64,000 nt of DNA from Spinacia oleracea (Eukaryota > Streptophyta > Magnoliopsida > Caryophyllales > Amaranthaceae): assembly GCF_020520425.1 (NCBI RefSeq), contig NC_079487.1, forward strand, positions 112,378,141-112,442,140, written 5' to 3'. The position numbers and the translations under genes were made by a program. The notes under the pieces were generated by a model, which saw only the letters and a program-made list of their open reading frames with translations, had not been told where the DNA came from and did not search any database. Shown piece by piece: positions 5,867 through 64,000 of this stretch; position 1 is the stretch's first letter, and every line of letters starts with the position of its first letter.

Positions 5867-6372
5867 CCGTTATTGCACTACAGGCAGCCTGGATTCTAGG
5901 TTGAAGGATACTGGACAATGGTACCGCCCATCTTATTTAAGAAAAGCTTGCATCAGACATCAGTAACCCTGGACCACAGCTACCCTGTTTCTGTAGGTGG
6001 ACCAAAATTTTATTAGAACATTGAAAGCAGTAATTATAACACTTGTTGGAATATCTAGAAATTTTTACAAATGAAATTGATGGTACACTGTCAATCCGAA
6101 ATAAAGATGTGATTTTTGCAGTGGAATGAGCTGCTTAATTGCTTTGACATCAACATGTTTTTCTACAGACTGAGACCACCCTTTTATGATCAGAAAGACA
6201 GAAACTGCAGGGAAAGGGGCTAGTCATTACTTGAAAAAAGGCATAAAATAAGAGATCATTGCATTGGATAAAAATAGGGTACACTGAAAACAACATTTCA
6301 TCAGTTTGAAAGCTCACTTACACTAAACAAATGTCAAAGGAGAAGGTCCCAAAAGGATACGAAGTAAAATAT
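5867..6372. other. Intergenic between second and third UGT
   Basis: Contains the promoter of the second UGT near its right-strand start and the 3' flank of the third. No repeat or other gene recognised. Confidence 0.4.
5931..5937 (-). promoter_or_regulatory. Possible TATA element of second UGT
   Basis: Minus-strand TTAAATA about 65 nt upstream of the ATG at 5866. Position is plausible, but the motif is weak and common in AT-rich DNA. Confidence 0.3.
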
Positions 6373-9059: not shown

Positions 9060-10147
9060 TTCACCGCCCTCTAGCTTTCTGGTGTAGATATGGTTATAAC
9101 TTGCTTGTATAATACAAGTAGAATAGTCTTAGATTTGAGTCCTGGTTGATGATTCCCTCTGGTCCTATAGATTAACATTAAACATTGAGATTGCAGACAA
9201 GACTGCAGAACAATGATTATTAAAATCATACTCCACTAACAATGATTATATTACTTGCATTGTACTTGCGTTAGCTTGCATTGGTCCTTGTTACATTTTG
9301 CTTACTTTAAGCTTGATTAAGAAAGCAATCAAAAAATTAATCATGAAAAAAAATAGCAAACATATCCTAACTAACTACATCAAATAGCAACCTGGAAAAT
9401 TTTCTAGTACATTTTATTGAAACGACCTCATCCTAACATGTTGCCTAACGCGTATGTACACTGTTAATTGCCATCCACATAACATGTCACAATGTCATGT
9501 ATCCGTATGGAGTACATTCATATACTCCTTACAACACTGCTTATTGTGACACCAATACCATATATTGAAAAGGAAGTAGTCCTAGTACAAAAGAAAAACT
9601 AAGGTTTTCAGCCAGAAAATACAGTATGTGTATGCAATTAGCAACAGTAAGCAGTAACCCACTATCCCAGTGTGGCTAATTAGGCATCTCTTAAAACACA
9701 TGGTTCAAACACATTGGTTCTTGTTATATCAATTGCATGTGGCAAATCTTGAGCAGAATTCAATGTCAAAATCAGAGTACAACTACAAACAGGCAATGAA
9801 ATGTAAATGAAAGTTCATGGAATCAGACAAGAAGGACAGCTGACACCTAGCAAAGGAAGAGGTAGTACCTCTTTTGAGGGACCATTCAATTCATATTGTT
9901 GGAAAGTTGCTGAAAGTGACTTGATTTAAAGAAATTCCAGAATTTTTTTGTTTGAACTCTGTACAAAACTCCATTGGCGTACTGTTGGATTTCCCTCTGT
10001 TTCTCTTAAGCATTTCATCGAACATGTGGTGGGCACTCAAATACTCGGCAAATGAGCGGGCTTCTGAACTATGCTCATTTGTTTTGGGGTTCAAACTTCA
10101 AAGTAACCTTAAAGGCCGCATTACCCCAATATATAACGGACATGTCA
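9060..10147. other. Intergenic, upstream of third UGT
   Basis: AT-rich upstream region of the UGT cluster. A stretch at 9891-10094 stays open on both strands but resembles no protein I know, so it is not called a gene. Confidence 0.4.
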
Positions 10148-22900: not shown

Positions 22901-25900
22901 ATTGAGCATGTCGACGGGGCTCCTTACAATGAAGCTGAGCCGGTAAGTAGCAATTTATTATACACACCCATCCTCCACATCACCCCCCCTCCCCCCCCAA
23001 AAGAAGTTAATAAAGGTGATGTTTCTATAGAGACCACCTTATATTGCATCTTGCTGACACCTTATATTTATCATGTTAAGCCTGCAAAGGAGGACAATGA
23101 AGAGGATATTGTTGCATCTGAATCGGGATCTGAGCATGAAAAGGAGGTCTGTCTCTGAAACGCATTCCCTCATTATTTTGTCATTTTTAATATCACGTAA
23201 CAAATTAATATTCTGTGGTTTCCAATTGTATGGTGCTCATTCGGTTGGGTAACGTTGATGGAATGTGCCCATTTTATTTCTGTTATGGAGGTTTGAGGAT
23301 GCAGGAAAGGTGGTATTATAGGTAATAGGTTCAGGAAGGTGTTAACAATTGGAGTCCTCCTCTCCTCCGTCAAGTGGTGTTTGGATTTTGGCGGAGGAGT
23401 AGTTCTGGGTGTCGGTTTGAAGGACTGTACTGCCTTTGTTAGTGGTCTTGGGCCTGTTGATGGTTTCCAGGTTGGTCTTGGGCCTGTTGATGGTTTTTCA
23501 GGTGGGTTGATGAGGGTGGGAGTAAGAGTTGGTATTTTTGGGTCACTTCCCTTTTCAACCAGCATTGCTTGTTTGCGTTGTTTTGTCACTTCCCTTTTCG
23601 TCTCCAAGATTACAAATAGGTTCTCAAGGGCGCCTCTAGTGGTCTGTCACCCCTATTTTTGGATCACAAGGACTTTTCAACCAGCATTGCTTGTTTGTGT
23701 TGTTTTGTTACTTCCCTTTTCGTCTCCCAAGATTCATAGGTTCTCAAGGGCGCCTCTAGTGGTCTGTCACCCCTATTTTAGCTCGGCCTTTGTTAAGGAA
23801 ATCATTGTCTTTGATGGAAACAAAAAGGCATCAGAAAGCATACGTGGTTTATGCTTTGGCACGCTTACACTTCAAAGGTGTAATAAGCGAGGTTATCACG
23901 GCAATCAAGAGCTGGCAGAAGAAGGGAACTCCATCTCTACAAATCTTAGTGTATGTTATTTTGTTTGTAAGGGTCTTCCATGGCCCTAGTGATTTAGTTT
24001 TAGTTTGTAGTTGTAGTTTGTAATCCTTTTCTTTTATGCAAATTAAGCTTGTCAAAAAAAAAAAAAAACAAATTACTTTGAGTGACCAAATTTTGTGCGT
24101 ACAGTTACTAGTTATTTATTAATTTTAAACATCATTCTGTTGGCAAAGTGGGGGAAATATTATAATTGTCATGATGTTTTGGTGATATAGTCCTAGGCCA
24201 TCTTTTTTTCTCATTTGCTTCAAATGCAATGTGTAATTGTTTCCTTGACACCAAGCTTTGGGTTTGCTTTATCTATTGCAGCACGAGACAACTGAGTTGG
24301 AAAATACTGAAGGTTTATCCAAGGAAGAATTGGGTCGTCTAGTTGCTTCTCGTTGGACAGGAGGAAAATCTGACCATAAGCCTGAAGAATCTGATCATAA
24401 GCCTGAAGAATCTGATGATGTGAAAGATATTGATCATGTGGACGAGATACCTAAAGATGTGGATAAAGATGTAAACGAGGAAGATTATGATGGCTATGCT
24501 TCAGAATTTGACGAGAATGACCACAAATATGATGAAAATTATGCAAATGACCACAAGTACGATGAAAATGATGCTGATGAACACGTGGATGATGATTTTA
24601 CGGCAGGGGATCATGAGGATTCTGGGTCATACAGGTCAGATTCTGACGACGAATCAGTAGAGTCAGGTATATTTCTGTCCTAAGTTGGATTAGTGTACTT
24701 TTATCGCGCCTTTGTTATTAGACTGGACTTATGTCTTGTTTATTTGTTCTTTGCATGAAATCATTTTATGGCGCATTAGATGTAACAGCCTTGGGTAACC
24801 CATCTTGGTTGGAGAAAATACAAATTACAGTGAAAAACATCCTGCATGCTGTTAATTTGTTTCAGACTCCATTGAACATATCAGGTGCATTTTCTAATGG
24901 CCTGCTTTGATTTTCTTGGATGTCATTAATATTGCAAAGATATGCTCCTGAAGCATGGAATTGTCTATGTTGAATAACTTTAGTTTATTGCTTTATGCTG
25001 AATTTATTGCTTAATGACATCTTTAGATGCTGCTCAAGTTCGAAAGGAATATGATGAATCAAGTGCCAAATTATCGAAAATACAATCAAGAATCTCAAGC
25101 TTATCTGAAAAATTGAAACTTGACTTTGGTAAGCATATTGGTTGACTGCTACCTTTATCAACTCTTTTTGGTTGGAGATTATCAGTGATGATGTGATTAC
25201 CTTCTAACTATGACTGTTTACAGGACCTGAAAAGGAATTTTATTCTCTCTATGATCGCTGTTTCGAGACTAAGCAGAACAAGTAATTCCATATTATTTTC
25301 TTCATTCTATTAGACTTGTTAGTTGATACAAGTGACGAATCAAATGTGCAGTGATACGCAGTTGCTTATGTACTTATGTTTGAAAAATATTAGTGGAAAA
25401 GTGAGGTGAAAGATGCTAAGGCCCCATTAGCTGAAAGTTGACAAGGTTAGGTACTTAGGTGTAAAGGTTCGGTGGCTAAAACTCTAAAAGGATGTGAAAA
25501 TTGAAATGGTATTAAAGGACAAACTTATCTAGGCAAATTGGTCGAAAATAATCCATGTAAACTTTTCTCTAAGTAATACTGGACTACTTCATATTAACAT
25601 ATTTGTGCAAAATGATATAACTCAATTTCCGGTGGAATATTTTGGTAAAATTTTTTTATTCTTTATTTTAAAAATTAATCAAACTATTTTTTAGAAAAAA
25701 ATATCCAAAATTGTTAAAAAAATTATAGAATCCCCTACATATGTTACCTTCACTTAGAGGTGTTAAATGCACACCGTTGATGTGATATTTTGGTGTATTT
25801 TTAAGGTACGTTTACAAGGTCTGTCCATATAAAAAGGCTACCCAAGAGGAGGGACACATGACCACACGTTTGGGGTAAGCACTTATCTCCTTTTATTATT

Positions 25901-27337
25901 ATTATTCTCGTTATCGTTTCTTGTTCTACTTTAGAAAGAGTATCCAGTATAATTTACTGTAAAGGGGTAGCAAATTGTTAATTAAGAGAGAGTCGGGTAC
26001 TTTCATGGCTCAGAGAAATCAAGCCAAAGTGGGTAGTGACAGGAGTTTCTCTGTCTTTCTAACTTTGTTTCTTTCTACACTTAAGATCCTTAGCACACCA
26101 ATTCTCTTATTGTTCTTGTAGAATTGGTGTGCTTCTTCTGGGAAGCACTGAACGCCACCCTAGTTAGAGAGGCTGAAATGCAAAAGATCTCTAATTTTCT
26201 ACGTCATTGTAACTTTTTCATTCATATCTATGATATTGATGTCTACACTTGGTAATCTAGATAAGATATGGTAGTTGGAATTTTTCAAATTAAATCCACA
26301 CCTTGTAATCAATTTTTAACCTTGAGGTAGATAAGACTTAATAATTGAAATTGAATTTAGAACTATATACTTGACTTCATGACTTGTTACACTTTTACTG
26401 AACTTTTACTAAGATTTGTGTCAAACTATATACTCCATATATAATTTTATCAAATGACTAGGGAGTAATAAATTTGATTTCTTTGACTGCTGCTTCTACA
26501 GGCTTTTACATAGGAAGCAATTGGTTTTATGACATTGTAAAATTTCTGTTTAACTACAAAATTTTATTTTCAATAATTCAGGCAGTGGGAAAAATTTGAG
26601 GACTCATACAAAGTCATGGTCTTCTCAAGTGGTGATAAATGCTGGAATGGACCCGATAGGAGTTTGAAGGTATATCTTTAACAATTACATTGACGTGCTT
26701 TGGATTCTGAGAAGACTTCCAATTAGTTTGAAGTTATATCCCTATAAAATACTTTCTTGTTTCTCCTAGGTCAAACTCAGATGTGGTTTGAAGAATGAAG
26801 TTACTGATGTAGATGAACCAAGCCGCTGCGAGTACGTTCTATGACTTATCTCCCCCCCCCCCCCCCCCCCCCCCCCCCCAACAATTTCCTCCAAAAGAAA
26901 AAGCGTGTGTGTATATGTAGTGTTTTGCATATTCAAAGGTTTAAACAATAAACCCTGATTGGCTGATTTCCAGGGATTGGTGTAAGACACCAACCCCAGG
27001 GAAATTATGATTAAATTGGGTGAAATACAGGAATATAAACTGTCAAACTGGGTGGAAATATGGGACTAAAAGTAGTCAAAAAAAGAAATTAGATTGGACA
27101 GTTTCCTGCTAGTTTAACTCAATCTTGTTACAGGTATGTTGCTTTATTATCGACACCAGGTGTCTGTCGTGAAGAAAAGCTCAAGGTAATTCCCGTTCCT
27201 TATGTTTTAGATCTTGCTTATGCCTCATTGCCATGACAACCTATCTAATGCAAGTGGAGATCATTTGAATTTGGTAGGAGTTGCAAGATAAGTTGGATGC
27301 CTTGAACAGACAACCGCCCAAACATGATGAGCTATAG
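19984..27337 (+). CDS. PSL4: Glucosidase II beta subunit (PRKCSH/PSL4 type)
   Basis: Fifteen exons: 19984-20092, 20185-20304, 20796-20891, 20982-21221, 22298-22494, 22877-22942, 23081-23146, 24282-24666, 25027-25128, 25224-25281, 25806-25874, 26582-26669, 26770-26831, 27134-27185, 27278-27337. All junctions are GT..AG and the frame is open for 589 residues. The protein is the non-catalytic partner of ER glucosidase II, which trims glucose from N-glycans in glycoprotein quality control. In order: signal peptide (1-22); two LDL-receptor-like cysteine modules (about 40-118), each with a CDGSDE-type calcium site; a charged coiled coil (about 118-235); an acidic, repeat-rich middle (about 235-425); and an MRH mannose-binding lectin domain (about 465-570). 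The MRH domain keeps the sugar-contact Gln, Arg, Glu and Tyr (GQWEKF, GPDRS, CEYVALL). The last four residues are HDEL, the ER-retrieval signal. In Arabidopsis this subunit (PSL4) is needed for EFR receptor maturation. Introns 4 and 7 are the largest; intron 7 holds a retroinsertion. Confidence 0.95.
23208..24068 (+). mobile_element. Poly(A)-tailed retroinsertion in intron 7
   Basis: About 860 bp ending in 16 or more A residues, flanked by CAAATTA at 23201-23207 and 24069-24075 (9 bp if the adjacent AA is counted). This is the signature of LINE-machinery insertion. It contains a direct duplication (23551-23660 and 23673-23780). No recognisable reverse transcriptase is present. It is either a 5'-truncated LINE tail or a retrocopied transcript, in the same orientation as the gene. 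Confidence 0.65.
23551..23780. repeat. 110-bp direct duplication inside the retroinsertion
   Basis: CTTTTCAACCAGCATTGCTT starts both copies (23551 and 23673). Each ends in the same CTCTAGTGGTCTGTCACCCC block, with a few point differences. Confidence 0.9.
26852..26879. repeat. (C)28 homopolymer in intron 13
   Basis: Twenty-eight consecutive C, starting 21 bp after the exon 13 boundary of the glucosidase II beta gene. It may also be a sequencing-error hotspot. Confidence 0.95.
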
Positions 27338-28642: not shown

Positions 28643-28819
28643 AATGGAGAATTCAAGGAATTAGGAATATAGAGAAACTTTTGTGTGAGACCGCCTCACA
28701 GGAAAGACCGCCTTGTTGGCAGTCTTGCTGGCAGCCCCGTTGGCGCATGTGCTGACGTCAGCATGTAAGTTTTTTTGAAAATTTTTTTTTCGAATTTTTT
28801 TTTTTTTGATTTTTTTTTT

Positions 28820-29650
28820 CAGGCTTAACTAATTGGACTTCAAGCTTAACTAATTGGATTTCAGACTTAACTAATTTGATTTCAGGCTTAAATTATTATT
28901 TTTTATTCAAATTTTTTTTTTTGATTTTTATTTTCCAGGCTTAACTAATTGGACTTCAGGCTTAACTAATTGGACTTTAAGCTTAACTAATTGTATACTA
29001 ATTGGACTTTAAGCTTAACTAATTGTATTTCAGGCTTAACTAATTGTATTTCAGGCTTAAATTTTTTTTTCGATTCCAATTTTTTTTGGGGTACTAACTA
29101 AACTAGTGTAAAACATAACTAAAAGTAATAAAATAATAACTAATTGAATAACAAAATAGTTAAGGTATAAAAACAAATAGTTAAACTTATGAGTCGAATA
29201 GTTATTAATTTTAAACAAACTTATTATTAACTAAAACTCATAAAATCTTAACTAATTAGTTGCAATGCTTAACTAATTGATTCCATTGCTTAACTAATTG
29301 GTTTCAGTGCTTAACTAATTGGTTCATTGCTTAACTAATTGGTTTCATTGCTTCACTAATTAGTTTCGTTACTTAACTAATTGAATCTCAAACTTAACTA
29401 TAATTAGTTCCAGTGGTTAATTAACTTAATTAAATCTATTGCATAACTAATTGCTTCCAGTGCTTCACTAATTGGTTTCGGTACTTCACTAATCAGTTGC
29501 ATGGTTTAACTAATATGTTACGTTACTTAACTAATTTATTACATTGTTTAACTAATTGGTTCCGAAACTTAACTTATTAGTTTAATTTTTTAACTAATTG
29601 ATTCAATTGCTTAACTAATTGGTTTCAATGCTTAAAATTTTGTATCTTAA
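28820..29650. repeat. Degenerate CTTAACTAATTGG array
   Basis: Several dozen diverged copies of a 13-20 bp unit with the core CTTAACTAATTG, separated by variable TTTCA/GGTT spacers. To the right (29650-30030) the array shifts to AACTAAAACTCAAAAAAT-type units. Confidence 0.85.
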
Positions 29651-30049
29651 CTAAAACTATGAAATTCGTTATCTGAACCTCAAAAATACATAACTAAAAC
29701 TCGAAAAATCTTAACTAAAACCAAGAAAATCGTAACTTAAACTGGTAAAATAATAACTAAAACTCAAAAAATCATAACTAAAGCCCTAAATAGAAAGTCA
29801 AAAATACGTAACTAAAGCTCAAAAAACCTTAACTAAAACCCAAAAAATCGTGACTAAAACTTAAAAAATCATAACTAAAACATAGAAAATCAGTCCAGCA
29901 ATTCCACTAAGAGACCATTATTTCAGAATTATAACTAAAACTAAAACATAATTATTCTTAACTAAATACAAAAAAAGTGTAACTAAAAAATTACGATTCT
30001 GAACTAAAACTAAAACGAAACTAAAACAACTAAAATCTGCAGTTTGCAG

Positions 30050-38173: not shown

Positions 38174-38482
38174 AATTCATGATCATTTCGGTCCTGTTTG
38201 GTTAGGAGATGTTACTTGTTAGTTGTTAGCTGGTTTGACTAGTTGTTGGTTGTTTGTATTAGTTGGTTTGACTAACTAGTTGAATTAACTGCTTGTGTAA
38301 AGGTGTTTGGTAAATTAGTTGTTAATTAGTTGTTTAATATGTGAAATATTGAAATGACCATTAAAGATACTTTGTTGTTGGATACTTTGCTTCTTAGGCC
38401 TTGTTTAGTTCACCTTATTTCAGGACCTTCTTACTTATTTCAGATTTAATCAGATCAGATCAGAAAAAATAAGTTCAGATCA

Positions 38483-39011
38483 TGTCAAAGTACCAACTCA
38501 ACCAAAAGCTTAAGCTGATGGTTGAAGCCCCAAGATTAGTTTTATACTCTATCACGCCCCCTCACATGAAAGCCCCTTTTGGGCTTGAAGTGTGGATGCA
38601 GCATAGGCCTCCTCATACCCAGCGCGAAATATTCCACTATGAAAGGAGGGGTGGATGAGATTCGAACCCGTGACCTTTGCGTCACGTTGGCTCTGATACC
38701 ATGATAAAAGTGATAGAATAGTCACTTGCTTTTCTCATTAAACATAGTAGTATTTAAATGCAATTCTAAGTGTGGGGTATTTAATACATAACAGTTACAA
38801 AGTAAATCAAGCAAAATCAAAGGCCTAGCCTTAAAGTACAAAAACTATTCAGTATCCTAAATTAACTTCTTATACTCCCCCTCAAGTTGGAGCATGAGGG
38901 TCACGAACACCCAACTTGGATAACAAAAAACCAATACCATGTCAAAGTACCAACTCAACCAAAAGCTTAAGCTGATGGTTGAAGCCCCAAGATTAGTTTT
39001 ATACTCTATCA
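38483..39011 (-). mobile_element. TRIM-like miniature retrotransposon
   Basis: Identical 72-bp direct repeats beginning TG and ending CA (38483-38554, 38940-39011) enclose 385 bp, with a 5-bp duplication GATCA on both outer sides. The host sequence is itself rich in GATCA, so the duplication alone is weak. On the minus strand TGGTATTGG follows the first LTR as a degraded primer-binding site. A fuller TGGTATCAGAGCC and a GAGGGGGAGT polypurine-like tract inside suggest a mosaic or nested origin. Non-coding. Confidence 0.7.
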
Positions 39012-39055
39012 GATCAGAAAAAATAAATTTAGATTAGATCAGACCATATTATTTT

Positions 39056-39075
39056 TATTATTATTATTATTATTA

Positions 39076-39117
<42 letters not shown>
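39056..39117. repeat. (TTA)n microsatellite
   Basis: About 20 TTA units with one interruption. Confidence 0.95.
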
Positions 39118-39118
<1 letters not shown>

Positions 39119-39142
39119 CAAATGCTAATAAAGTCAAACATT

Positions 39143-40150
39143 TTACAAATAATTAGTGGGCAACCGAGATACAATCTGGGCCCCCACTCCTCTTGCTATA
39201 GAAAAACCTATCCTGGAGAAAATATGAGCAGCAGCACGAGCCCCAATGTCCTGTGTCCTAGAAAACTTCTGAATCCGCTTCAGCAACGCAAAAGCATCCT
39301 TATCCAACTCCCCCAAAGAGGAGAAAGAGAACGGAAGAAAGCCATAACCAATGGCCCTGCAACGTGTTTCGTACTTGACCCGCTTCTGAATAGCCGCATC
39401 AGTCACAACCCGACCCGGAGCAAAGCCAGACAACTCAGACTGTGTTAAAGGAGAAGATCATGTCAAGTCAACACACACATCACAACCCCGGTCCCAAGAG
39501 TAGAGCAGCACGTCTGCTGGACAGAGAGTTCCATCGTTCCCTCCAGAGAGACCAATATCAACCTATTTTCGCGCCGAGATCCTAGACCGATAACAAACAT
39601 CAACAAGGGTATCTCGAACCACATTATGCCGATGTACCCACGATACCAGCACATGACACCGCATGATAACCAAAGATATCTCCCGCAAAGACCCTGGAGC
39701 AAGTAGAACATGGCACCGTAACAGAGAACAAAGGAACCCCCAACCGGTAACACAACACACATCGATAAGCCTTAGCATTCATCGTCTGACCCAAACCTGA
39801 TATGGGGACCGCACGAAGCCAACAGAGGTGTGATCTCCCAGCTACGATTTCCACAAAGCCGACTGCCGAGACGATAAAGAGAAGGTGGATTCTGCAGATG
39901 CGGTAACCTTGGTGAAATATATATCTGCCAATTTCTTCATAAGTTTAGGGGCAGCGACCTCACTAGGGTTACTCATAATGTCATACTCCACCGTTCCACT
40001 AAATAGACTCAACGCATCTTCAAATGCTCGACCAAGACCAACAATATCAGCAAGCCGTAGAAGCTGTGTCTGCAAACCAAAAGACTGCAACCGAGAAGCA
40101 AGAAAAGCATAATGCCGAACATCACCCGCGGAATAAACACCAAGTCCGCC
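39143..40150 (-). pseudogene. 3' part of an R2-like reverse-transcriptase gene (broken)
   Basis: On the minus strand, three frames read in sequence give the C-terminal third of a plant RT-domain protein family: GGLGVYSAGDVRHYAFLASR, then FEDALSLF, WLRAVPISGLGQTMN and YRCVLCYRLGVPL. A Cys-Cys-His-Cys cluster follows (CSTCSRVF...HAVSC), then an RHNVVRDTLVDVC motif, and an endonuclease-like PADVLLYSWD...CVDLT segment. The tail is GYGFLPFSFSSLGELDKDAF...RGVGAQIVSRLP, with a stop at 39143. At least two frameshifts and several stops make it non-functional. The RT core is missing: homology ends at 40150, exactly where a TTG microsatellite begins. The family identification is from memory of related plant proteins. 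The cluster-RHN-endonuclease order is that of R2-type non-LTR retrotransposons, which is my inference. Confidence 0.75.
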
Positions 40151-40152
40151 AA

Positions 40153-40162
40153 CTGCTGCTGC

Positions 40163-40244
<82 letters not shown>
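40153..40244. repeat. (TTG)n microsatellite
   Basis: About 30 trinucleotide units (CTG then TTG). The long poly-leucine reading frame through it is an artefact. Confidence 0.96.
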
Positions 40245-40246
<2 letters not shown>

Positions 40247-40259
40247 AATTAAAACAATT

Positions 40260-41200
40260 AAGTCCAGATCATGAACGATATGATCAGATCATGTCCATAT
40301 CAGAACTGATTTTTTACAGATCAGAATCATTATATATCCCGATCAGAACCGGTATGATCACATAATATCCAGGTCGTAATTGATCTGTCTAGATCAGAAC
40401 TGATTCGTACAAATCATGTTCGGTCCTTACAGAACCAATATTTTCAGATCAGAACCGATTTGTACAGATCATGTCCAGATCAGAATCGATATATCCCAAT
40501 TAGAACTGTTCTAGATATCGACTCTGTACAGATTATGTTCAGATCAGAATTGATCTGAAGAGATCATGTCCACATCAGAATTTATTTGTAAAGATCATGT
40601 CCAGATCAGAACTGGTATGTAAAGATCATAACCAGACCAAAGTTGATCATGTCCATATCAGTTCTGATCTGATCTGTACAAATCATGTCCAGATCAGAAC
40701 TAATCTGCACAAATTATGTCTAGGTCAAAATTGATCTTTATAGATCATGTCTTGATCAGAATTGATATACAAAGATCATGTCCAGACCAGAACCCATACG
40801 TGTAGATCATAACTCGTATATTCGGATCGATCTATCTAGATCATGTCTAAATTTGTACTGATTTGTCAAGATCAAGCCCATATCAAAACCCGTATGTCCA
40901 TATCATTTCTAAATAATCGATCTATTTCGATCAAAATCGATCTGTCCAGATCATGTCCAAATCAGAACTTGTCTGTACAAATCATGTCCAGATCAAAACT
41001 TCTTTGTATAGATCATTTCAAGATCTGTACTGATCATGTCCAAATTAGGACTTATCCGTCCATATCATATCCAGATCAGAACTGAATTTGTACATATCAT
41101 CCCCATATCAGAACTGACCTGTACAGATCATATCCATATCAGAACTGATATGTCTAGATCATAACCCCTCTATCTAGATCATGTCTAGGTCTATCTAATA
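40260..41200. repeat. 31-32 bp degenerate satellite array
   Basis: About 29 diverged units of the type AGATCATGTCCAGATCAGAA plus a variable CTGATMTGTAC part, with period 31-32 bp. Because many units lack stops, short spurious frames appear; the array is not coding. Confidence 0.85.
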
Positions 41201-41432
41201 TAAGGAATAGTTAAATCATGAGCAAAGTCAAATAAATAATAACAATATTATAAATTTGTGTAACATTTATTTTACACGTAAGTCATTTAATATTAATAAA
41301 TGTAGATTTTTGTTTAAATTAATTCTAAAAAATCATATCAGATCGATCATATCAGATCAGAAAAAATAAGTTCAAATCAGATCATACCAGATCATATCAG
41401 ATCAGGAGAAATAAGGTGCACTAAATGGGGCC

Positions 41433-42305
41433 TTACTAGTACTAGATAAATAGTTTATTATGTATAATTATCTTCTCTTTAGTTTTTAATAAGCATAAAA
41501 TCAATAAAACAAATTTATTTTCCCTTTAAAAAAAATACATAAATTATTGATATGCAAATAGAGAAATTTTAGTAATGATATTACAAGAATAATTGCAATA
41601 GTTTTAATTACGTGATTCAACGTACTAATATAAATTTTAGTACAAGTAACGAGTAGTAAATGTGGTAAAGGAAATAATGTAGGATGCTAAGATTGGTAAG
41701 TGTTGTAAGTTTAGGCAATATTATGACAAAATAGTAATTTACATTCACTTTCTTAGACTTCTAATTGCAAAAGGCTCATATGTTGAGCTTTTTGAGAATA
41801 AGTTTTTTCATCCCAAAACTCTTTTCCAAAACTCTTCTAACCAAACACTCCCAAGTCCCAATTAGCCTTTCAAAACGTGAAACCTCTAATTCACCTCAAA
41901 AAATTATTTTCCCCTCAAAACTCTCCTAACCAAACACCCACAGTGTACTAGTATAATTTTATGATTTTTCATTAGATACCACTCACATAGTTATATGAGT
42001 TTTTGGAAATTGATTTTGATACCTTTGTATGAATAAAGCACAATTTTCTATTTCTTGGTTACTTATATATGAAATTGTTATAAATTCTTTTTTGGGCAAA
42101 TGAAGTTGTTATAATTTTTTTAGTTATAAATGAAACTCTAATAATGTAATAAACTAATAATCGATACTTTGTAACAATTATCATCATTAGATGAGGTTAA
42201 TCAAGACCAGTAAAAGTAGGTAGAGACTAATTGTCCTACGTGATAAAATAAGAGGAAAAATAACTAACATATTGTGCTGCTATTCTACCTATTACAGAGT
42301 ATCAA
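41433..42305. other. Intergenic with possible small MITE
   Basis: AT-rich. About 41760-41945 ends in CTCCTAACCAAACACC, the complement of GTTTGGTTAGGAG near 38197, a common plant MITE end, but no clean element can be bounded. Confidence 0.35.
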
Positions 42306-42314
42306 TTGATTTTA

Positions 42315-42690
42315 GGATATTTTGATATTTACCACCTTTTAAGGTTTATGTTTTTGTATTTATCACCTTATAAAATGCTATTTCATATTTACCACCTTAA
42401 TCTTATGAAATATTTTTAACTCACCACCTCTTAGCGGTTTTCATCAAATTTTCGGCCCATGTGAACCTTGTTTAACTAACTTCTTCGATTGAAAACCTAC
42501 TAAAAGATGAGGAAAGTTAAAGAAGTTGGTTAAGTGGAGTTCACATGGATGAAAAATCTGATGAAATTCGTTAAAAGGTGGTGAATACGAAACTTTTCAT
42601 AAAATTAAGGTGGTAAATATAAAATAACATTTTATAAGGTGATAAATACAAAAACATGAAAGTTAAAAGGTGGTAAATATGAAAAATTCC
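42315..42690. mobile_element. Mutator-type MITE with long inverted repeats
   Basis: 376 bp, nearly a palindrome: arms of about 165 bp repeat CATATTTACCACCTT and TTTTGTATTTATCACCTTAT on opposite strands. A perfect 9-bp duplication TTGATTTTA (42306-42314 and 42691-42699) flanks it. Confidence 0.92.
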
Positions 42691-42699
42691 TTGATTTTA

Positions 42700-43147
42700 A
42701 GATAGAATTCTACCGTCCTTATATGAACAAAGATCATTGTTGATTTCCTAAATAGAACGTGAGACACAAAAATAGGTGAAAGGGAAGTGTATTACACTAT
42801 TACCGTATACTTTCCGTAATTGAGAGGAAGAAATCTTAGGAGTAATACGTAGTTATTTGCAACAAAGATTACTTGTAAAAGCATTATACGGAGTACCACT
42901 GTAGATTCATCCAAGTTAGGTGCATGAAGTACACGTAATTGACGGCTAAATATGAGCATGATTTATGAAAAGATTAAGTAAATTCGATCAATTCCTTTAA
43001 CTAAACTCACACGAAAAGAATCTTCAACCATCATTATTGATGTTACTTTCCCATGTGCTTTCTTCTAAGTACCTTATTAGACCTTCGAGCTACCACGTTT
43101 GTATCCCGGTGCACTGTGAACTCTTACATTCTCTCTTTATATACTCC
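42700..43147. other. Intergenic, no feature seen
   Basis: AT-rich, no gene or repeat recognised. Confidence 0.4.
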
Positions 43148-43155
43148 GTACATGT

Positions 43156-43558
43156 AAATATGGTTGTGGGCCGGGCCGGGCCGGCCTGAAGCCCGACCCG
43201 ACCCGCCACGAAAAAAGCACGGCCCGACATGAGCACGCAAAAAGCACGGCACGGCACGGGCACAAAGTCGTGGGCCGTGGGCCGGGCCTGGACCTTACTT
43301 TTTAGGAAAAAGCACGACAAGGCACGGCACGACTCGACCCGACACGACAAAGCACGTTAAATTTAGTCAAATTAGCCTTAGGCACGACGGCACGACACGA
43401 AAGCACGTGGGCTTGGGCCGGGCCTGGGCCTTATTTTTAACTTTCCGGCCCGGCACGACACGAAACAAGTGGGCCTGCCGTGGGCCCGGCACGGTTAGGC
43501 CCACGACCCGTGGGCTCGGCACGAAGCACGGCCCGGCCCGGCCCACAACCATCTTTAC
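43156..43558. mobile_element. hAT-type MITE, GC-rich
   Basis: 403 bp with inverted ends containing ATGGTTGTGGGCCGGGCC, flanked by GTACATGT (43148-43155 and 43559-43566), an 8-bp duplication (9 if the preceding C is counted) as expected for hAT elements. The interior is full of GGCACGGCACGAC and GGCCCGGCC motifs. Confidence 0.85.
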
Positions 43559-43590
43559 GTACATGTGAGGAGAAAATGTGAGAGGAATTA

Positions 43591-43680
43591 CTCCATCCGT
43601 TCCTAAAAAATAGTCTCAAATTAAAATCTCACTTTATTAAGAATTGGTTGTAATCAAAAGCAAATGGGTAGTTAACCGAT
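43591..43680. mobile_element. Stowaway-type MITE, left half only
   Basis: Starts CTCCATCCGTTCCTAAAAAA after TA, then is cut off where the satellite-bearing element begins. Confidence 0.6.
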
Positions 43681-44540
43681 ATGTCTAGATCATGTCATAA
43701 TCATAACCGATATATCCATATTATAACCAATATGATCAGATCATGTCCTAATCATAACCAACTTGTTCAGATTATGTCCAGATCTAAACCAAAATGTGGA
43801 GATCAGGACCGATCAGTACAGATCTTGTTCAGATCAAAATCGATATGTTCATATCAGAATTGATCGTTCAGATCAGAACCGATCTATACAGAACATGTCT
43901 AGATCATAACCGATTTGCACAGATCATGTATGAATTAGAACCGGTATGATCGGTATGTGCAGATCATGTCCATGTTAGAACCATTATGTCCATATCAAAA
44001 TGAGTATGTGTTGATCACGTCTAGATCAAAATCGATTTATACAGCTCATGTCCAGATCAGAATCGATCTGTACATATCATGTCCAGATTTGAAACATCGG
44101 TCCAGATCGGAACCAGTATGTCCAAATAATGTCCAAGTCAGAACAATTATGTTCATATTAGAACCAGTATGTCCAAATCATGTCCAACTCATAACTGATT
44201 CTGTCTAGATCATGTCCAAATTAGAAACGATATATTCAGACCATGTTCAAGTCTATCTAATATATGAAATATTTATATAATGATTAAAGTCAAATAAATA
44301 ATTTATAATTATAAAAATATTATAAATTTTACTAAAATTTATTTTACATGTATATTATTTAATATTAATAATTCTAGTTTTAGTTATTTAAATCTTAATT
44401 ACGAGAAATCAGATCAGTTCTTATCATATCAGAAAAAAATAAGTTGAGATAAGATCATAAAAAATATGTTCAGATTAGAAAAAATATGTTCAGATCAAGT
44501 CAGACCAGATAAGGAGAAATAAGGTAACATCTAAATGGTA
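43681..44540. mobile_element. Truncated relative of the 38397-41432 element, with satellite
   Basis: About 18 units of the AGATCATGTCCAGATC satellite (43681-44250). A non-satellite tail follows that matches 41195-41430, including TATTTAATATTAATAA, ATCAGATCAG and the end motif GAGAAATAAGGT. The left terminus is missing. Confidence 0.8.
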
Positions 44541-55663: not shown

Positions 55664-56519
55664 GAGGAGAAGTGAGGGAGGGGATGCTTTGTAGCTGATG
55701 AGGTTGCAGGCCGGGGGACCCACTCAGCTACAGAGAAGAGAAAAAAGCAAAAGGTGGAGAGGAGGAGGAGGAGAGAGAAAGATGGGGGAGGGTGAGAATG
55801 TTGAAGACAATCTGCTTTTATTAAGGTTTCTTTGATAGGGGAAAGGGGCTCGGATTATTTATTTTTTATTTTTTATTTTTCATTAATACTTCGTATTAGA
55901 TTATTAGGGAATTCAAAATTGAAGCTTAAAACAGATTGAGAGGGGTGATAGATTGATAATAATATGCTAATTGGAGTGGGGAATACCGTTGATGTTCATA
56001 AGTAATTTTTATCTTTGATGCTGCATGATATTCTCTTCATTCTTTAATGTAAACTATTACTTCGTAAAAAATTATGAAAATAGTACGAAATATATGAAAT
56101 GATAAGTGTCTAACAGTAAAAATTCGTGAAACGCCTCATCTACGAAAACTAGACCCAAAAAATAGTGATTAAGGGCCGGATTAGATGAATTGTCGTCAGA
56201 AAATCATTTTACTGAAACAAGAACCCTTAATTTCTAATGAGAATTTTGAAGAGATGAAATGGTTGTGACAAAATTATCTAAAAAAACAGTGAAAAGTTGA
56301 TACTAGTACAAATATTTTGCAATTTATTTATTATTTATTTAGATTTAAAAAGAGGGGCCAGAAACATGGAAACAACAGTGGAGGAATTGGGCCTAGTAGT
56401 TGGGGACATTTGTTCTTTTGTGTGGACACCCACCTGCCACCTGTGCAGCTTATTTTGAAACCAGAAGAAGAGGGTTTATTTTTATTTTACTTTTGTAAAT
56501 ATACAATAATAATAATAAT
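55664..56519. other. Intergenic, promoter side of the 53746-55526 gene
   Basis: GA-rich near 55740-55790, then AT-rich. Nothing else recognised. Confidence 0.4.
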
Positions 56520-57153
56520 ATTATTCTCGTTCAGCGTTTTTGAAGCTCGGTTCTGTTTGTTTGTTGGGCACGGTGGTTCTGTTGGTCGTGGTTCTGTTGG
56601 TCTGCAGTGGTTCTGTTTGTTGGTCGCGGTGCTTCGTCAAGGTAACGGTGGTTTCGGTGGTTCGTCGGTGGTGGTTCGTTTGGTGTTGGCATTGTGTTGG
56701 TGTCATATTCGTTGGTTCGTTGCTGCACAATTATTGGCGGTATTGTTTGGTTTTGCGTTTGGTATTGGTTTTGCGATTTGGTATTGGTTTTGCGATTTGG
56801 TATTGCGAGTTGATCATTGTTATTTCAATGGTATTTGGAATTGAATATTGCTGCTTCTCTCGGATCAGGTTTTCGGAGTGATTATTGCTGCAGTGTTGGT
56901 GTGATTGTCGCTGTGTTTGTTGCTGCAGCTCCGTTGGTGTTTGGTGTGATTGTTGCGACAGTGTTCAAGGCATTGTGATTGTTGATGTTCGTTTCAGCGT
57001 GGTAGTGTGTTGATATTGTTGAGGTCAGAGGGTGTATTGTTTCAGGGTTATTTTAGTGCCGCGTTGTGTTTGTTGGCATTGTGTGGTTGGTGCGTTGTGA
57101 GGTTGCGTTTCTTGGCGGAGGTTTCAGGTTCAGTGCGGTTGAAGTGCCTTCAT
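56520..57153 (+). other. G/T-rich leader of the R2-like RT gene
   Basis: Dense GGTTCTGTTGGT and TTGGTATTGGTTTTGCG repeats with very few A residues on this strand. They lead without a break into the RT gene start, so they are likely its 5' untranslated region. The open frames are compositional. Confidence 0.5.
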
Positions 57154-58285
57154 ATGGCAGCGTCCGTGGAGAAATTTCATTGCCCTTTTGTGGGTCTTAG
57201 CGGGTGCCAGGATGGAGGTGGGCGTGGTATGGTAAGGAGTTCTCTGATCACTCACTTACGGGATCGTCATTGTTGCTCTGGTGTGCGGGATGTAACCCGT
57301 CATTCCCTTACTACCAATCCGCAGGTTTTTTCTACGGCTGAGGTGACCTTTCGTCGTATGGAAATTTGGCTGTGTGGAGATTGTTTCAAGACACATACTC
57401 ATCGTACTAGGTGTCGACATGGCAGTGGTTCTAGTACTGTATTTGTAGACCCACCTAATTCTGGGGATGGTATTATTCGTTTTATTCTCTACGGTATTCA
57501 AAAGCCTCAAGCTCCTACTGCCGAGCTGTCTTCTTCTGATGCGCCTCGAGAACATCATTTTTCTTTTGATGTTGCTCTTCTAGACACTTTATTGTCTAAG
57601 CGGTTGCGTTCTGTGAAATCCATCCCTCCCAAATGTCGTTTGGGTTTTTCGCGAGTTCTAAAAGGGGCGCTTGATAAGGTGATTTGCAGACCAGATGACA
57701 TCGCTTGTTGGGTTCAGTTGCTCGTGTTGCCTCTTTGTGTGCTCTCGACTTTTTCTCCGCGAAGTAATCGTGAGTGTTCCTCTAGTGTTAGGCAGCGACG
57801 ACAAGAAGAGAGTATCACCTCTGCTATTTGTTCTTGGGGTGAGCCTGGTGGTTCTGAGCAACTTGTTATCGACACATTGGCCAGCGTGTCTCCATTGGAT
57901 GTTGACGAAGACCATGATTTGGCGGAGCGTAATATTAAGCAATGCAAGAGAAAGATTTCTGACGGTCACTACACTGCTACGGTTAGAATTCTTTCGTCCT
58001 CGGGTCTTGCCCCTTACAGTGATGCTACTCTGGCAGATTTGCAAGCAAAACACCCTTCCTTTCCGGTCCCTACCTTACCGGATATCCCTGTTGATCATCA
58101 CCTGACTGCTACCTCCGTTGTTGTGTTGGAGCAGATTAGGGGCTTTCCGCGGGGTACTTCGTGCGGTAGAGATGGCTTGCGTGCTCAACACCTTTTGGAT
58201 TGCTTGGGTGGTGCTGCTGTAGCTGTTTCTGATGAGTTGGTGGATGCTATTACTCAGGTAGTTAATCTCTTTCTTGCTGGTAAGT
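57154..58285 (+). pseudogene. 5' part of an R2-like reverse-transcriptase gene, cut by a Copia insertion
   Basis: The open frame starts upstream at a non-ATG codon; the first good ATG is at 57154 (MAASVEKFHCPF). About 377 residues are intact. A C2H2-like finger lies at residues 10-39 (C10, C18, H34, H39), and a Cys/His-rich knuckle at about 74-89 (CGDCFKTHTHRTRCRH). A long linker follows, with the start of a reverse-transcriptase domain near residue 332 (RGTSCGRDGLRAQHL). The protein stops matching the family after FLAGK, where the Copia LTR begins; the frame then runs into the LTR and ends at 58329. The catalytic RT core would lie beyond the insertion, outside the window. Family membership is from memory of plant RT-domain proteins; the R2-like reading is inference. 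It complements the C-terminal fragment at 39143-40150. Confidence 0.75.
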
Positions 58286-58601
58286 TGAAGGAAATAATGC
58301 CCTTGGTCCAAGTATGCATTCTATGTTAAGTCTAATAAATGCGGTTCAGTATTAATTAACAAGTTAATAATTCAGTGAGATCAAGTGAGCTGAATGCCTA
58401 GCTAGAGGCCGCTTCAGTTCAAGTGGAATTAATGATATTAATCCACAGCTTACTCTTGACTGAACCCGTAGGGTCACACAAAAAGTACGTAAACGGATCA
58501 AGTATTTAATGGCATTAAATACTCCATCTATGAATATTCGGAACCGACGGATCTTGGTTTCAGTGGGAGCTAAGATCGTCACAGGCAAGAAATGAATACT
58601 C

Positions 58602-58920
58602 CGGAAACGATGATATTGCCGGAAACAGAAATATGGATCGTATCGGAAATATGAATATTATCCAAGTCGTAGATGTTGCCGGAAACGGAAACATGGTACG
58701 TATCGGAAAATATTATTGGAAATGGAAATATTACCAGAATCGGAAATATTGCCGGAAACGGAAATATTGTCAGAATCGGAAATATTACCGGAATCGGAAA
58801 ATAATTCCGGAAACGGAAATATTAAATATTTGTTCGAATCGGAAATTAATTCCGGAATCGGAAATATTAAATATTGTTCGTATCGGAAATAGATTCCGGA
58901 AATGGAAATTTAATCGGAAG
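58602..58920. repeat. GGAAATATTGCCGGAA tandem array in the LTR
   Basis: About 17 units of 16-21 bp on the theme CGGAAATATTRCCGGAAWCGG lie upstream of the LTR TATA box, in the usual enhancer position. Confidence 0.85.
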
Positions 58921-59264
58921 CGTATCGTACGAATTAGCATCGGACGAGGCCTGCCGGACGAAGGCCCAGCACGAAGCCGGGCCATCGCCCAGCAAGCACG
59001 CACGCCACAAGCCCAGCGCGCACCAAGGCCACGGATGCGTGGGCCGCGCTGCATGGGCTGCTGCTCGCATGCGCATGGGCAGCCCTTGTGGCTGCCGTGT
59101 GTGTGTGTGAGTTTGTGCTCATGCGTGATTCCTAAAACTGCAAGAGTTAGTGTGTGATTAAATTCCTATTCCTAATTAGATAAATTAATTAAATAGAATT
59201 CATGTAGGATTCTAATTTCAATTAATTCGTATCCTACTAGGATTGCGATTCCTTTTCCATAACT

Positions 59265-59273
59265 CTATAAATA
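59265..59273 (+). promoter_or_regulatory. TATA box of the Copia LTR
   Basis: TATAAATAA about 360 bp before the LTR end, the expected place for the retrotransposon promoter. Confidence 0.6.
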
Positions 59274-59629
59274 AAGGCCTAGGGGTCATTATTTACATAC
59301 AAGTTTTTAAGTATTCAAAACTAAGATTTTTAAGCAGAAAAATCAGCCAATATTCTTGCCTACCCAACCGAAAATATTAGAACCTTAAGGGCGATTCTAG
59401 TTGGTCAATCTTAAGGCGGATCCGGACGTGCTGTGGACTATCTACGGAGGGACGACACTTGGAGTCCTAAAGACTTGTTCTTGTTCGGTTCGGGCGCAGC
59501 TAGGGAAGGCACGCAACAAAGAGTATGCATCTAAACTATGCTAAATGATTATGTGTAAATAATATGTTTCCTGACTTTATGGTTTTTCCGCATGATTTAT
59601 GAACTGTCATATGAATCATAACCTAACAG

Positions 59630-59643: not shown

Positions 59644-62496
59644 CCTTATTATTTTCATAATCTAAATTGCATGAACATGGTTAAATATTACAAATTTGCA
59701 AGAATTAAAAGGGGTGATTAATTTTCGTAATTGTTAATTAATTGCAAATTGCGTTTATTTAATTATACGTACGCAGTTTTTCGGCAGTTTCTTCATTACT
59801 CATCCGAATTGAGTGATTTTTGTGTCAATTCCGCATGTAAAAGGCATTCTAAAATTTTGACAAAAATAGTATTTTTCTGCCGAACCCAGAATTCTCAAAT
59901 TCGAAGCCTAACTATGACTTTTCGAAGGTTTTAGTTTTTCGAATGCAAAATTTCGTAAATTTAAGATGTTAAATTAAATATTTGCGATTCTTGTTGATAA
60001 ATCTTGAATTTTTGATTGACCTACTGCATATGTTTAACAAGTTTGAATGCCTAGTCTTGTTAATTATGCAATCTAATTTGTAATTATGATTAATTTGTTG
60101 AAAATTAGAATAATTTAGAATTAATTTGATTTTCATAATTAATTGTAATTTAATTAGAAACCTATGATTAAAAACCACCATAAAAATTGTAAATTTACGA
60201 TAAATTTTAAATTTTTATGACCTAGACTTGAATCCATATCAATCGGAAATCAATTGGATAATAAATTTTCGATTTTTCGCCCTAAAATTATGAAATTAAT
60301 ATTATTTATTAATTTGTCATTAATTTTAAATATAAATTTTAAATTTTTATGCGATTCGTTCAAATAACTTGCACGCACGAAGCAATGGACGCTTCGTGTT
60401 ACCCTTAAGGGGTGTTGTATAATGCGGGCATGCGACGACGAGCAAGGGAGCTCGTCGCCCGTGCGGCACGAATGCAATGAGCAAGGGCGTAGTGCACGAG
60501 CACAAGGCAGCAGCCCTGCCTTGTGTCGTGTGCCACGAGCAATGAACGAATGGGCATGGGCGAGGGGCGAGCCAAGGCAGTCGCGTGTGGGCAGCAAGCG
60601 AGCTGCGCCACAACGCGCGCTGCCTCGCACAAGTGCGCGCAGCCTCGCGCGCAGCGAGCGCAAGCTCGCGTGCCACGAGCGCTGCGCCCAGCACTACTCG
60701 CGCGCACAGCGCGCGATGTCGCTCGCCCAGCGAGCGATGTCGCGCCCCAGCGAGCGATGGCTCGCGCGCACAGCGCGCGATGTCGCCCGCCCAGCGAGCG
60801 ATGTCGCGCCCCAGCGAGCGATGGCTCGCGCGCACAGCGAGCGAGCCAGCGCGCCCAGCGAGCGATGTCGCGCGCCCAGCGAGCGATCTCGCGCGCGCGC
60901 ACTGCGAGCGATAGCTCGCGTGCGATGGGGCGCTGTGCGGAGGCTTGCGATAGGACAGCAGCAGCTATGCGACGAGCGCATGGGCTGCGCGCACATGGCC
61001 AGCAATGGCTGTGTGCGTACGGCCCATGGGCGTGCAACGCGTAGGGTGTTTGCGTTACGATTAGATCGTTTTGAATGTTTAATTTGAAAATTTCAGTTCA
61101 CGTAATTTTAATTAATTTTAAAATTAATAATTTGAATTAATTTCTTGGATTTTAATTTTGAATATTATAATTATAATAAATGGAATTTATTCTAATTATT
61201 TTACTAAAATTAAAATCATGAATTAATTTAAATGCGACTGAAATTAAATTAAATTTTTGGATTCAATTATAAATTTATATGAGCTTTAAATTTTAATTAA
61301 ATTTGTATGTTTCCGGTTAGACTAGAAATACAATTTTATGTTTAAAATTAGTAAAGCATATGAATTTATTGGTTTAAGTGGGAGCGCTTTTTAGTCATAA
61401 ACTCTTGATTAGGTCTACAAATCCTTAAGGTTAAAACAACTTGATTAGAATTAATAAGGACTGAATAATTGGTAGATTATTGGTGCCCTTGATTAATTGC
61501 TGCAAATGTTTACGTGATGCATAATGTGTTTTACTAACCAGCTATGTGGGCCATTCATGATAATGAATGGGTGAATGGTATATATTGTATATGTACTGCT
61601 TTGCAGGTTATGAAGTGACTAGTATGGCCCAAATAGGATAGAAAATATGGTCTGCGTACCATTAATTTGAATGTAATTGGTCTAAAGCACCAAAGTTATT
61701 TTTCAATTCAAATATGGTCTGCGTACCATCAAATAGTTGTAATTAGTTATAGCTTATCCTATTTGAAGAAAATGGTGCCTCCCACGGAGATTTTCAAGAC
61801 GGACTTTGAAGTCAAAGCTTCAAGATGAAGTCGGGCCATACTAGATCACAAATATCTTATGCATGTTTTAAGTTATTTATTGTTTTAAATATGTCTTAAA
61901 ATGCATGAGATCAAAAGCTTGATTATGTTGCATGATTAAGGATTTTAGTTCACTTAAAATCTAACCAACATAGTAAGAGCCTTAAGTTCCAAACTTAAAA
62001 AAAATTGAGTTAAAAGGTGCCATGCCAAAATATACACTTGCTTGGATATCCTTTACATCAATCTAGTAATAGTTTTCGCTCAGCGAGGTGTTACTTATTG
62101 GTCCTAAAGGGGCAAGGTACACAAATAATTGTGAGTACATGTTAGTTTTGGTGAAACTCAATGATATAAGTAAGGAGTCCTTTTATGTCGTGGCAAATTC
62201 GATAGGTTTACCTAATAAGTTCTTAGACGTACCTATCAACCAAGAATAGTTTCTAGACTATTAGCAAAAGGCTTTTGCTTACCTAAGATGTTCTAGGATT
62301 AAGTCGACAAACTGTGCTTAGTTCTTCAATGATTTTAGGATCTTGGAATCATTTTATTCACACCTGCCGGAACACATAACTTGAATAAAATGCTTAATAA
62401 ACATTGAATTATGCATGTATGCTAGAATTTAAGTTTATTAAGAGAAACTGTGAATGGTTATTTATTTGTTTATTCTTTTCAATTGTAGTTTTTAAT
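59644..62496 (+). other. Long Copia leader between primer site and gag
   Basis: 2.85 kb, much longer than usual for Copia. AT-rich apart from the GC-rich array at 60360-61045. No intact gene. TATGGTCTGCGTACCAT occurs twice near 61650 and 61715, and each occurrence is palindromic (ATGGT..ACCAT). Confidence 0.6.
60360..61045. repeat. GC-rich GCGAGCGATG array in the Copia leader
   Basis: Very GC-rich island in AT-rich DNA. Its core (60700-60910) is a tandem of CCCAGCGAGCGATGTCGCG and GGCTCGCGCGCACAGCG units of about 18-54 bp. All six frames are largely open because of composition, giving Ala/Arg/Ser-rich spurious proteins. Confidence 0.85.
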
Positions 62497-64000
62497 ATGG
62501 CAAACAACAATTCATTCAACATTCGATCAATTCTCGAAAAGGAGAAGTTGAACGGGAAAAACTTCCTTGACTGGCAAAGGAACTTGCAAATAGTTCTTAT
62601 GCAGGAAGAAAAGGAGTATGTCCTAGATGAGGCGATGCCCGAAGCTGCAGGCGACGGGGTCACTCAGGCAGCCCTCAATCGTTGGATTGATGCCAACAAG
62701 GATGTGAAATGTCTAATGCTCGCCACCATGAGTGCGGATCTGCAGAAAACGTTCATCAACTCAGATGCTTTCACAATCATCAGTGAGTTGAAGAACATGT
62801 TCCAAGATCTGGCTCGAGTCGAAAGATTCGAGACTCATAGGCAAATTCTTGAGACCAAGCTTAAGAAAGGCGAGCCCGTAAGTCCACATGTTCTCAAAAT
62901 GATTGGACTCATTGAGAATATGAGTCGGCTGGATCAGCAATTTTCTCAGGAAATGGCTATAGACACCATCCTCCATTCTCTTCATAGCGGGTATGATCAG
63001 TTCAAACTGAACTACAGTATGAATAGTCTGGACAAAACGCTCACTGAGCTTCACGGTATGCTGAAGACCGCTGAAAAGACGCTCAAAAGTGATAAGCAGG
63101 ATGTGCTTATGGTGCGTGGGGGCAAGTTCAAGAAATCTGGAAAGAAGAGGAATGCTAAGAAAGGTGGCAACAAGGCCAGCCCAACTAAGCAAACTGGCGC
63201 CAAATCTGCAAAGAGGAAGGTCAGTCAACCCACTTCTGAATCCGAATGCTTCTACTACAAGAAGAAGGGGCATTGGAAGAGAGATTGCTTGAAGCTAAAG
63301 GAAGATCAGAAGAACGGAACAGTCGTTCCATCTTCAGGTATTTTTGTTATAGACTGTATACTTGCTAATTCAACTTCTTGGGTATTAGATACAGGTTGTG
63401 GCTCACACTTATGTTCCAATCCACAGGGACTAAGAAGAAGTAGAAAGTTAAGCAAGGGTGAAGTCGACCTACGAGTGGGAAATGGAGCACGGATTGCTGC
63501 ATTAGCTGTAGGAACTTACTATTTGTCGTTGCCCTCCGGGCTAGTTTTGGAACTGGAAGAATGTTTCCATGTTCCAAGTCTTACTAAAAACATCATTTCA
63601 GTTTCTTGCTTAGATGCTAAGGGATTTTCCTTTATAATAAAAGACAATAGTTGTTCGTTTTATTTTAAAGAGATGTTTTATGGATCTGCTAGATTAGTCA
63701 ATGGACTTTATTTATTAGATCACGACAAACAAGTATATAACATAAATACCAAAAAGGCCAAAAAGGATGATTCAGATCTCACCTATCTGTGGCATTGTCG
63801 ATTAGGCCATATAAACTTGAAACGCTTAGAAAGACTTCAAAGAGAAGGAATTCTAGAACCATTTGACTTAGAGGATTATGGTAAATGCGAATCATGTTTA
63901 CTTGGCAAAATGACAAAGCAACCTTTCTCTAAAGTTGGAGAAAGAGCAAATGAACTATTGGGTTTAATCCATACAGATGTATGTGGACCAATGAGTACAA
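62497..64000 (+). CDS. Copia gag-pol polyprotein, 5' part (runs off right edge)
   Basis: One open frame of 501 codons with no stop, continuing past the window. Gag (about 1-250) packages the element's RNA. A zinc knuckle at 251-264 reads CFYYKKKGHWKRDC; the second cysteine of the CX2CX4HX4C pattern is Tyr, which should weaken zinc binding. The aspartic protease active site is D298-T-G in WVLDTGCGSH. The integrase pre-domain begins at about 431 (LWHCRLGHINLKRL), with His433 and His439 pairing with the CESC cysteines near 463-466. HTDVCGPMS, at the very edge, is the start of the integrase core with its first catalytic Asp. RT and RNase H must lie outside. The intact frame and well-preserved LTR suggest a fairly recent insertion. 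Lineage looks like the Angela/Tork side of Copia; that is inference. Confidence 0.93.
   Translation, partial: MANNNSFNIRSILEKEKLNGKNFLDWQRNLQIVLMQEEKEYVLDEAMPEAAGDGVTQAALNRWIDANKDVKCLMLATMSADLQKTFINSDAFTIISELKNMFQDLARVERFETHRQILETKLKKGEPVSPHVLKMIGLIENMSRLDQQFSQEMAIDTILHSLHSGYDQFKLNYSMNSLDKTLTELHGMLKTAEKTLKSDKQDVLMVRGGKFKKSGKKRNAKKGGNKASPTKQTGAKSAKRKVSQPTSESECFYYKKKGHWKRDCLKLKEDQKNGTVVPSSGIFVIDCILANSTSWVLDTGCGSHLCSNPQGLRRSRKLSKGEVDLRVGNGARIAALAVGTYYLSLPSGLVLELEECFHVPSLTKNIISVSCLDAKGFSFIIKDNSCSFYFKEMFYGSARLVNGLYLLDHDKQVYNINTKKAKKDDSDLTYLWHCRLGHINLKRLERLQREGILEPFDLEDYGKCESCLLGKMTKQPFSKVGERANELLGLIHTDVCGPMST

Follow-up and report, generated by a model that had tools for sequence, protein, structure and literature searches.

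Non-LTR retrotransposons that encode a restriction-like endonuclease, RLE (RLE LINEs), share a common order of domains, in which zinc fingers stand ahead of an RT0 loop and a thumb-like region is followed by a CCHC knuckle, an RHN motif, the acids of a PxD...D motif and a KX2KY motif (PMC5678591). According to the same source the knuckle of these proteins is spaced CX2-3CX7-8HX4C, the RT0 loop reads PGPD, and the catalytic lysine is the first K of KX2KY and lies far from the acids. Several groups of such elements have been described. R2 is reported from animals (PMC12203849), while Utopia, of the Utopia/NeSL type, is described with one to three N-terminal zinc fingers, an RT, one zinc finger and an RLE, and some HERO and Togen families are said there to target microsatellites (PMC4640811). 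In Dong, which belongs to the RLE elements of the R4 group, the 5' junction carries TAA repeats and the RNA self-cleaves via a 5' HDV-like ribozyme (PMC3774820), Dualen/RandI encodes an APE in addition to the RLE (PMC3636483), and a further clade, Ambal, is listed in Repbase (PMC5753468, PMC4455052). Plant LINEs are assigned to L1 and RTE both in a 2022 review (PMC9033089) and in a 2024 research paper (PMC11288735), and no RLE LINE in a plant was found among the matches listed from the titles and abstract openings of the open-licence literature.

In the present analysis a stretch of 64,000 nucleotides from Spinacia oleracea (the window) was examined, in which two pieces of a protein-coding element lie about 17 kb apart on opposite strands. 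Judged from their sequence, both pieces are probably (at roughly 75%) dead or interrupted copies of a non-LTR retrotransposon of the R2-group type, that is, RLE-encoding, in a plant genome. Copy 1 on the plus strand corresponds to the N-terminal half of the element protein and copy 2 on the minus strand to the C-terminal half. The two copies presumably belong to one family and the middle part missing between the halves would be the RT, the link of the halves being unproven within the window because the copies share no overlapping sequence.

Copy 1 (57154-58284, plus strand) was delimited by its frame and by an insertion point. Starting with the ATG at 57154, the frame is intact over 377 codons up to the insertion point (about 58286) and belongs to a stop-free frame of 447 codons (56986-58329), the last ~15 of which are inside an inserted LTR; no stop-free run exceeded 197 codons when the window was dinucleotide-shuffled 100 times. 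Two finger-like stretches were recognized by pattern match, namely a C2H2-like zinc finger CPFVGLSGCQDGGGRGMVRSSLITHLRDRHC at residues 10-40 (57181-57273) and a second Cys/His finger CGDCFKTHTHRTRCRH at residues 74-89 (57373-57420). With patterns composed post hoc, the stretches having already been seen, the loose pattern of the first finger recurred in 775 of 5000 residue shuffles and is therefore weak, while that of the second recurred in 6 of 5000 and both together in 1 of 5000. Further downstream a candidate RT0-like loop FPRGTSCGRDGL (58144-58179), comparable to the PGPD loop of R2, was indicated by local alignment scores. Of 1000 shuffled queries, 2 reached the score of this end of copy 1 against R2Bm, 27 that against R2Tg and 75 that against 9nl2, and a profile of three R2 RT0 sequences run over six frames had no entry for copy 1 at E values up to 10. 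The PDB search with copy 1 likewise returned nothing up to E 10, and its AlphaFold model, computed without alignment, was uninformative (pLDDT 35.2). Of the original prediction of zinc fingers ahead of an RT start, the two finger-like stretches are located at the stated residues and an RT0-like loop may follow, but the frame of copy 1 contains no catalytic RT motif and the RT core is absent from it.

The region upstream of copy 1 consists of a G/T-rich leader (56521-57153, plus strand), considered from its sequence as the presumptive 5' UTR. No match to an HDV-like ribozyme up to E 5 was obtained at the presumed 5' end of the element, and the sole RNA-family match in the leader was mir-7927 at E 1.9, far under the gathering score.

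The frame of copy 1 falls short of the catalytic RT motifs because an LTR retrotransposon begins at about 58286. Its 5' LTR (58286-59629, plus strand), which interrupts copy 1, has ends placed by the TG...CA termini and by the PBS-like site TGGTATCA at 59630. Copia gag and pre-integrase domains were detected by Pfam within 62491-63999, and the internal part of the element extends to the window end; neither the 3' LTR nor the remainder of copy 1 was found within the window. The position 58285, taken previously as the end of a gene at 57154..58285, was rejected as such and is the edge of the LTR insertion: the frame is real, but it is cut off by the inserted element. The Copia LTR also contains tandem CGGAAATATT-like repeats at 58654-58913, and its leader contains GC-rich 21/64-bp tandem repeats at 60697-60912.

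Copy 2 (39143-40153, minus strand) is a 5'-truncated and decayed C-terminal half, traced by its frames and stops from the thumb-like region to the stop codon at 39145-39143. Four in-frame stops interrupt it (TAG 39844, TGA 39781, TAG 39565, and TGA 39460). At the truncation point the motif GGLGV (40136-40150) is seen in the sequence, which we take to resemble the thumbs of LINEs. It is followed by the CCHC knuckle CSTCSRVFAGDIFGYHAVSC (39651-39710), which is spaced Cx2Cx11Hx3C (CSTC-x11-HAVSC), outside the published CX2-3CX7-8HX4C, and lies just upstream of the RHN motif in a frame other than that of RHN and the nuclease tail. The ~165 codons past the knuckle hold the RHN motif as the putative start of the endonuclease (39623-39631), the stretch P-A-D-x14-D with the putative catalytic acids of PD-(D/E)XK type (39467-39520), both located by pattern and alignment, and KRVKY (39371-39385), found by pattern, which corresponds to KX2KY and occupies the place of the displaced catalytic lysine of RLE LINEs. 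All these features are on the minus strand. The RT core is absent from copy 2 as well as from copy 1, and the AlphaFold model of copy 2 without alignment was uninformative (pLDDT 32.5). The region 39143-40150 had been proposed as the C-terminal half of the gene at copy 1; it does carry a CCHC cluster, an RHN motif and a nuclease-like tail, but its role as the continuation of copy 1 was rejected, as it is a separate copy on the opposite strand without overlap, with four stops and with the CCHC cluster in another frame.

The 3' end of copy 2 is formed by a 3' UTR of 26 nt (39117-39142, minus strand, from the sequence), located between the stop codon and a (TAA)n stretch (39047-39116, minus strand), which was found by repeat search and may be either a tail or a target microsatellite. 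At the other end a (CAA)27 array (40163-40244, minus strand, also by repeat search) is close to the 5' truncation point. Non-LTR insertions are usually marked by truncation of the 5' end, a short UTR and a tail of simple repeats. The truncation at GGLG, the stop codon, the 26-nt UTR and the (TAA)n stretch are such marks of retroposition, and the end structure of copy 2 fits a non-LTR insertion, as after target-primed insertion; no target-site duplication was identified at copy 2. The surroundings of this copy are repetitive: two identical 74-nt direct repeats (38481-38554 and 38938-39011) flank a 383-nt insert beside it, perhaps a TRIM-like element, and degenerate 31-bp repeats similar to CAGATCAGAATTGATCTGTACAGATCATGTC occupy two blocks with a gap of ~2.5 kb at 40250-44300, with copy 2 at their edge.

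The evidence for the endonuclease was obtained at several levels. The strict pattern K/R-P-D...KX2KY gave no matches in the window, yet was found in 3 of 200 shuffles. The patterns were then loosened to fit, after copy 2 had been seen, and stops were scored as residues both in the window and in the shuffles; under these rules RHN, PxD, D/E and KX2KY in series (acid motif P.?D) occurred once in the window and in none of 200 and none of a further 1218 shuffles. The same pattern without RHN gave two window matches, one of them outside copy 2, and occurred in 28 of 200 shuffles, and with RHN kept and a single K at the end it gave one window match and occurred in 11 of 200 shuffles. Pieces cut by hand to start at RHN were also aligned, and all three solved R2 nucleases share with copy 2 the residues R, H and N, the two D and the K. 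A profile built from these three nucleases placed the copy 2 piece 39778-39566 fifth among 1924 stop-to-stop pieces at E 6.5, which is not significant; stretches of copy 2 that were read through their stops scored no better than E 17. The pairwise scores of copy 2 against the three R2 nucleases were equalled by 119, 427, and 487 of 1000 shuffled queries. Pfam matched neither piece with any family, APE, RNase H, integrase and gag included; the nuclease piece of R2Bm likewise had no match. In the PDB search with copy 2 four capsid sequences at E 0.91-1.4 were returned and rejected. A putative PD-(D/E)XK-type nuclease with a displaced lysine is supported in copy 2 by its motifs, with P-A-D in place of PD, but not by homology across the whole domain; the nuclease activity of this C-terminal domain would follow by analogy.

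Among the described systems, the R2 proteins (R2Bm, 8gh6; R2Tg, 9dou) present, in the same succession, a zinc finger, an RT0 loop, a CCHC knuckle, RHN, acids, and KX2KY, and in R2 as in the copies described here the two catalytic acids are 12-14 residues apart. In contrast, R2 has K-P-D where P-A-D is found here and a knuckle of Cx2-3Cx7-8Hx4C instead of Cx2Cx11Hx3C, and the whole-domain similarity is not significant, as among six pairwise comparisons only that of RT0 with R2Bm stands out. The searches of the window with Rfam gave no match to rRNA or to snRNA, including U2, at the gathering score, and the tRNA search of the window returned none; copy 2 sits between microsatellites and not in 28S rRNA genes. 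Thus, the predicted R2-type architecture is retained as the motif order of RLE LINEs, but assignment to the R2 clade proper is not supported by the sequence, given the different spacings, the similarity to solved R2 proteins below significance and the window free of rRNA matches. Utopia/NeSL elements, compared by description, resemble the proposed element in their arrangement of zinc fingers, RT, zinc finger and RLE, while their target is U2 snRNA, to which the window has no match. Dong/R4, also set against the copies by description, shares the TAA repeats, as (AAT)n adjoins or is near both copies here, whereas the HDV-like ribozyme of Dong was not found. Dualen/RandI likewise encodes an RLE, but no APE corresponding to its second nuclease was found here up to RT0.

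Perfect trinucleotide runs of at least 13 bp number six in the window and are distributed over five loci, three of which are of the AAT type (25893-25906, 39055-39116, and 56505-56520). One of them (39055-39116) borders copy 2 at its 3' end. Another (56505-56520, plus strand) precedes the ATG of copy 1 by 633 nt and could mark a 5' junction formed with a microsatellite target, and that at 25893-25906 is near neither copy. At both copy-adjacent arrays AAT is on the sense strand of the element. With one copy of each end, a (TAA)n tail and a (TAA)n target look alike, and a preference of the element for (TAA)n microsatellites would be a tentative reading.

Relatives were sought in viral, prokaryote, plasmid, and phage collections, none of them plant. 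Viral contigs searched with copy 1, with copy 2 and with an alignment of copy 2 and a provisional coral and sponge sequence yielded no confirmed relative, the same was observed for contigs of prokaryote genomes in two scans, and the phages gave none with copy 2 as query. The tblastn search of plasmids with copy 1 produced 37 weakly matching records, which were rejected as chance (the best 20 of 37 at E 3, mostly phage tail genes). An RLE family of corals and sponges with the putative signature RPADxLxxxWxxGxxxxxDxTxxSPL may be a counterpart of copy 2, which is 32% identical over ~125 residues to a provisional sequence for this family; no real sequence of it was found in viral contigs or plasmids. 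Plant database proteins without a name may carry both halves, and related coral and sponge proteins may exist. If so, the family would be widespread and merely unnamed.

The distribution of the evidence over two separate pieces permits several other interpretations. It is unlikely that two unrelated families are involved, copy 2 alone being an RLE LINE and copy 1 either a different element or a protein with zinc fingers: the absence of overlap in sequence and the position of the pieces 17 kb apart on opposite strands speak for it, but the halves are complementary in order without any duplicated domain, and (AAT)n, oriented alike with respect to the sense strand, is present by both copies. The plant database proteins presumed to bear both halves would also argue against two families. 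That the pieces derive from a divergent L1 or RTE element of plants, in which the knuckle and the tail are merely RLE-like, is distinctly improbable, even though plant LINEs are placed in these clades (PMC9033089, PMC11288735) and APE LINEs also carry a CCHC knuckle (PMC5678591). This origin is argued against because neither APE nor RNase H was detected by Pfam in the pieces, the APE being missing from the 377 residues that run through the RT0-like loop; the long tail past the knuckle with its RHN, PxD...D, and KX2KY and the N-terminal finger-like stretches speak against it as well.

The original prediction had also allowed for a domesticated plant RT gene rather than a mobile element, and the frame of copy 1, intact over 377 codons, is in accordance with it. 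This explanation is very improbable and is not supported for these copies, as copy 1 is cut by Copia and copy 2 is decayed, being 5'-truncated with four stops and a (TAA)n end as in retrotransposed copies. Finally, Cys/His-rich and motif-like stretches arising by chance, with no related protein behind them, would agree with the failure to match any database family and with the R2 profiles below significance, but the frame is far longer than in the shuffles and the motif string was absent from all 1218 of them, so that hardly any weight can be given to chance. An RLE-encoding non-LTR retrotransposon of the R2-group type is accordingly preferred for both copies.

Such an element would encode a single protein, in which N-terminal zinc fingers would bind the target DNA and a central reverse transcriptase would be followed by the CCHC knuckle and a C-terminal endonuclease of PD-(D/E)XK type. 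By analogy with R2 the endonuclease would nick the target, and onto the nicked strand the RT would copy the element RNA, starting at its 3' end. Where this copying stays incomplete, 5'-truncated inserts like copy 2 would result.

The rest of the window is occupied by other sequences. In its recognizable content the window resembles nuclear DNA of a plant, with Pfam matches to UDP-glycosyltransferase (two pieces), to HSP20 (one gene) and to the Copia-type domains. Repeats similar to UDP-glycosyltransferase are located on the minus strand at 262-9128 with a spacing of ~3.1-3.5 kb, and of three pieces submitted to Pfam, those at 2916-3845 and 6373-7284 matched the UDPGT domain, whereas that at 1172-1792 did not. 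Dense 21-bp tandem repeats of the CTTAACTAATTGGTTTCATTG and AAACTCAAAAAATCATAACTA types are present at 28780-29900.

It is possible, although doubtful at present, that flowering plants harbor an unrecognised R2-like lineage of RLE LINEs that inserts into (TAA)n and branches deeply, outside R2, R4, NeSL, CRE, and Hero. A plant RLE LINE would be an addition to the L1 and RTE elements of the published plant surveys. R2 proteins are under engineering into an all-RNA system for DNA insertion (PMC12222951), and if such a lineage is true, it would provide an endonuclease whose target may differ and be a microsatellite. Since neither half has a Pfam match, standard annotation would in that case leave a lineage of plant LINEs without a name. 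The list of plant LINEs would then exceed L1 and RTE, and the early evolution of LINEs would gain a new point of reference.
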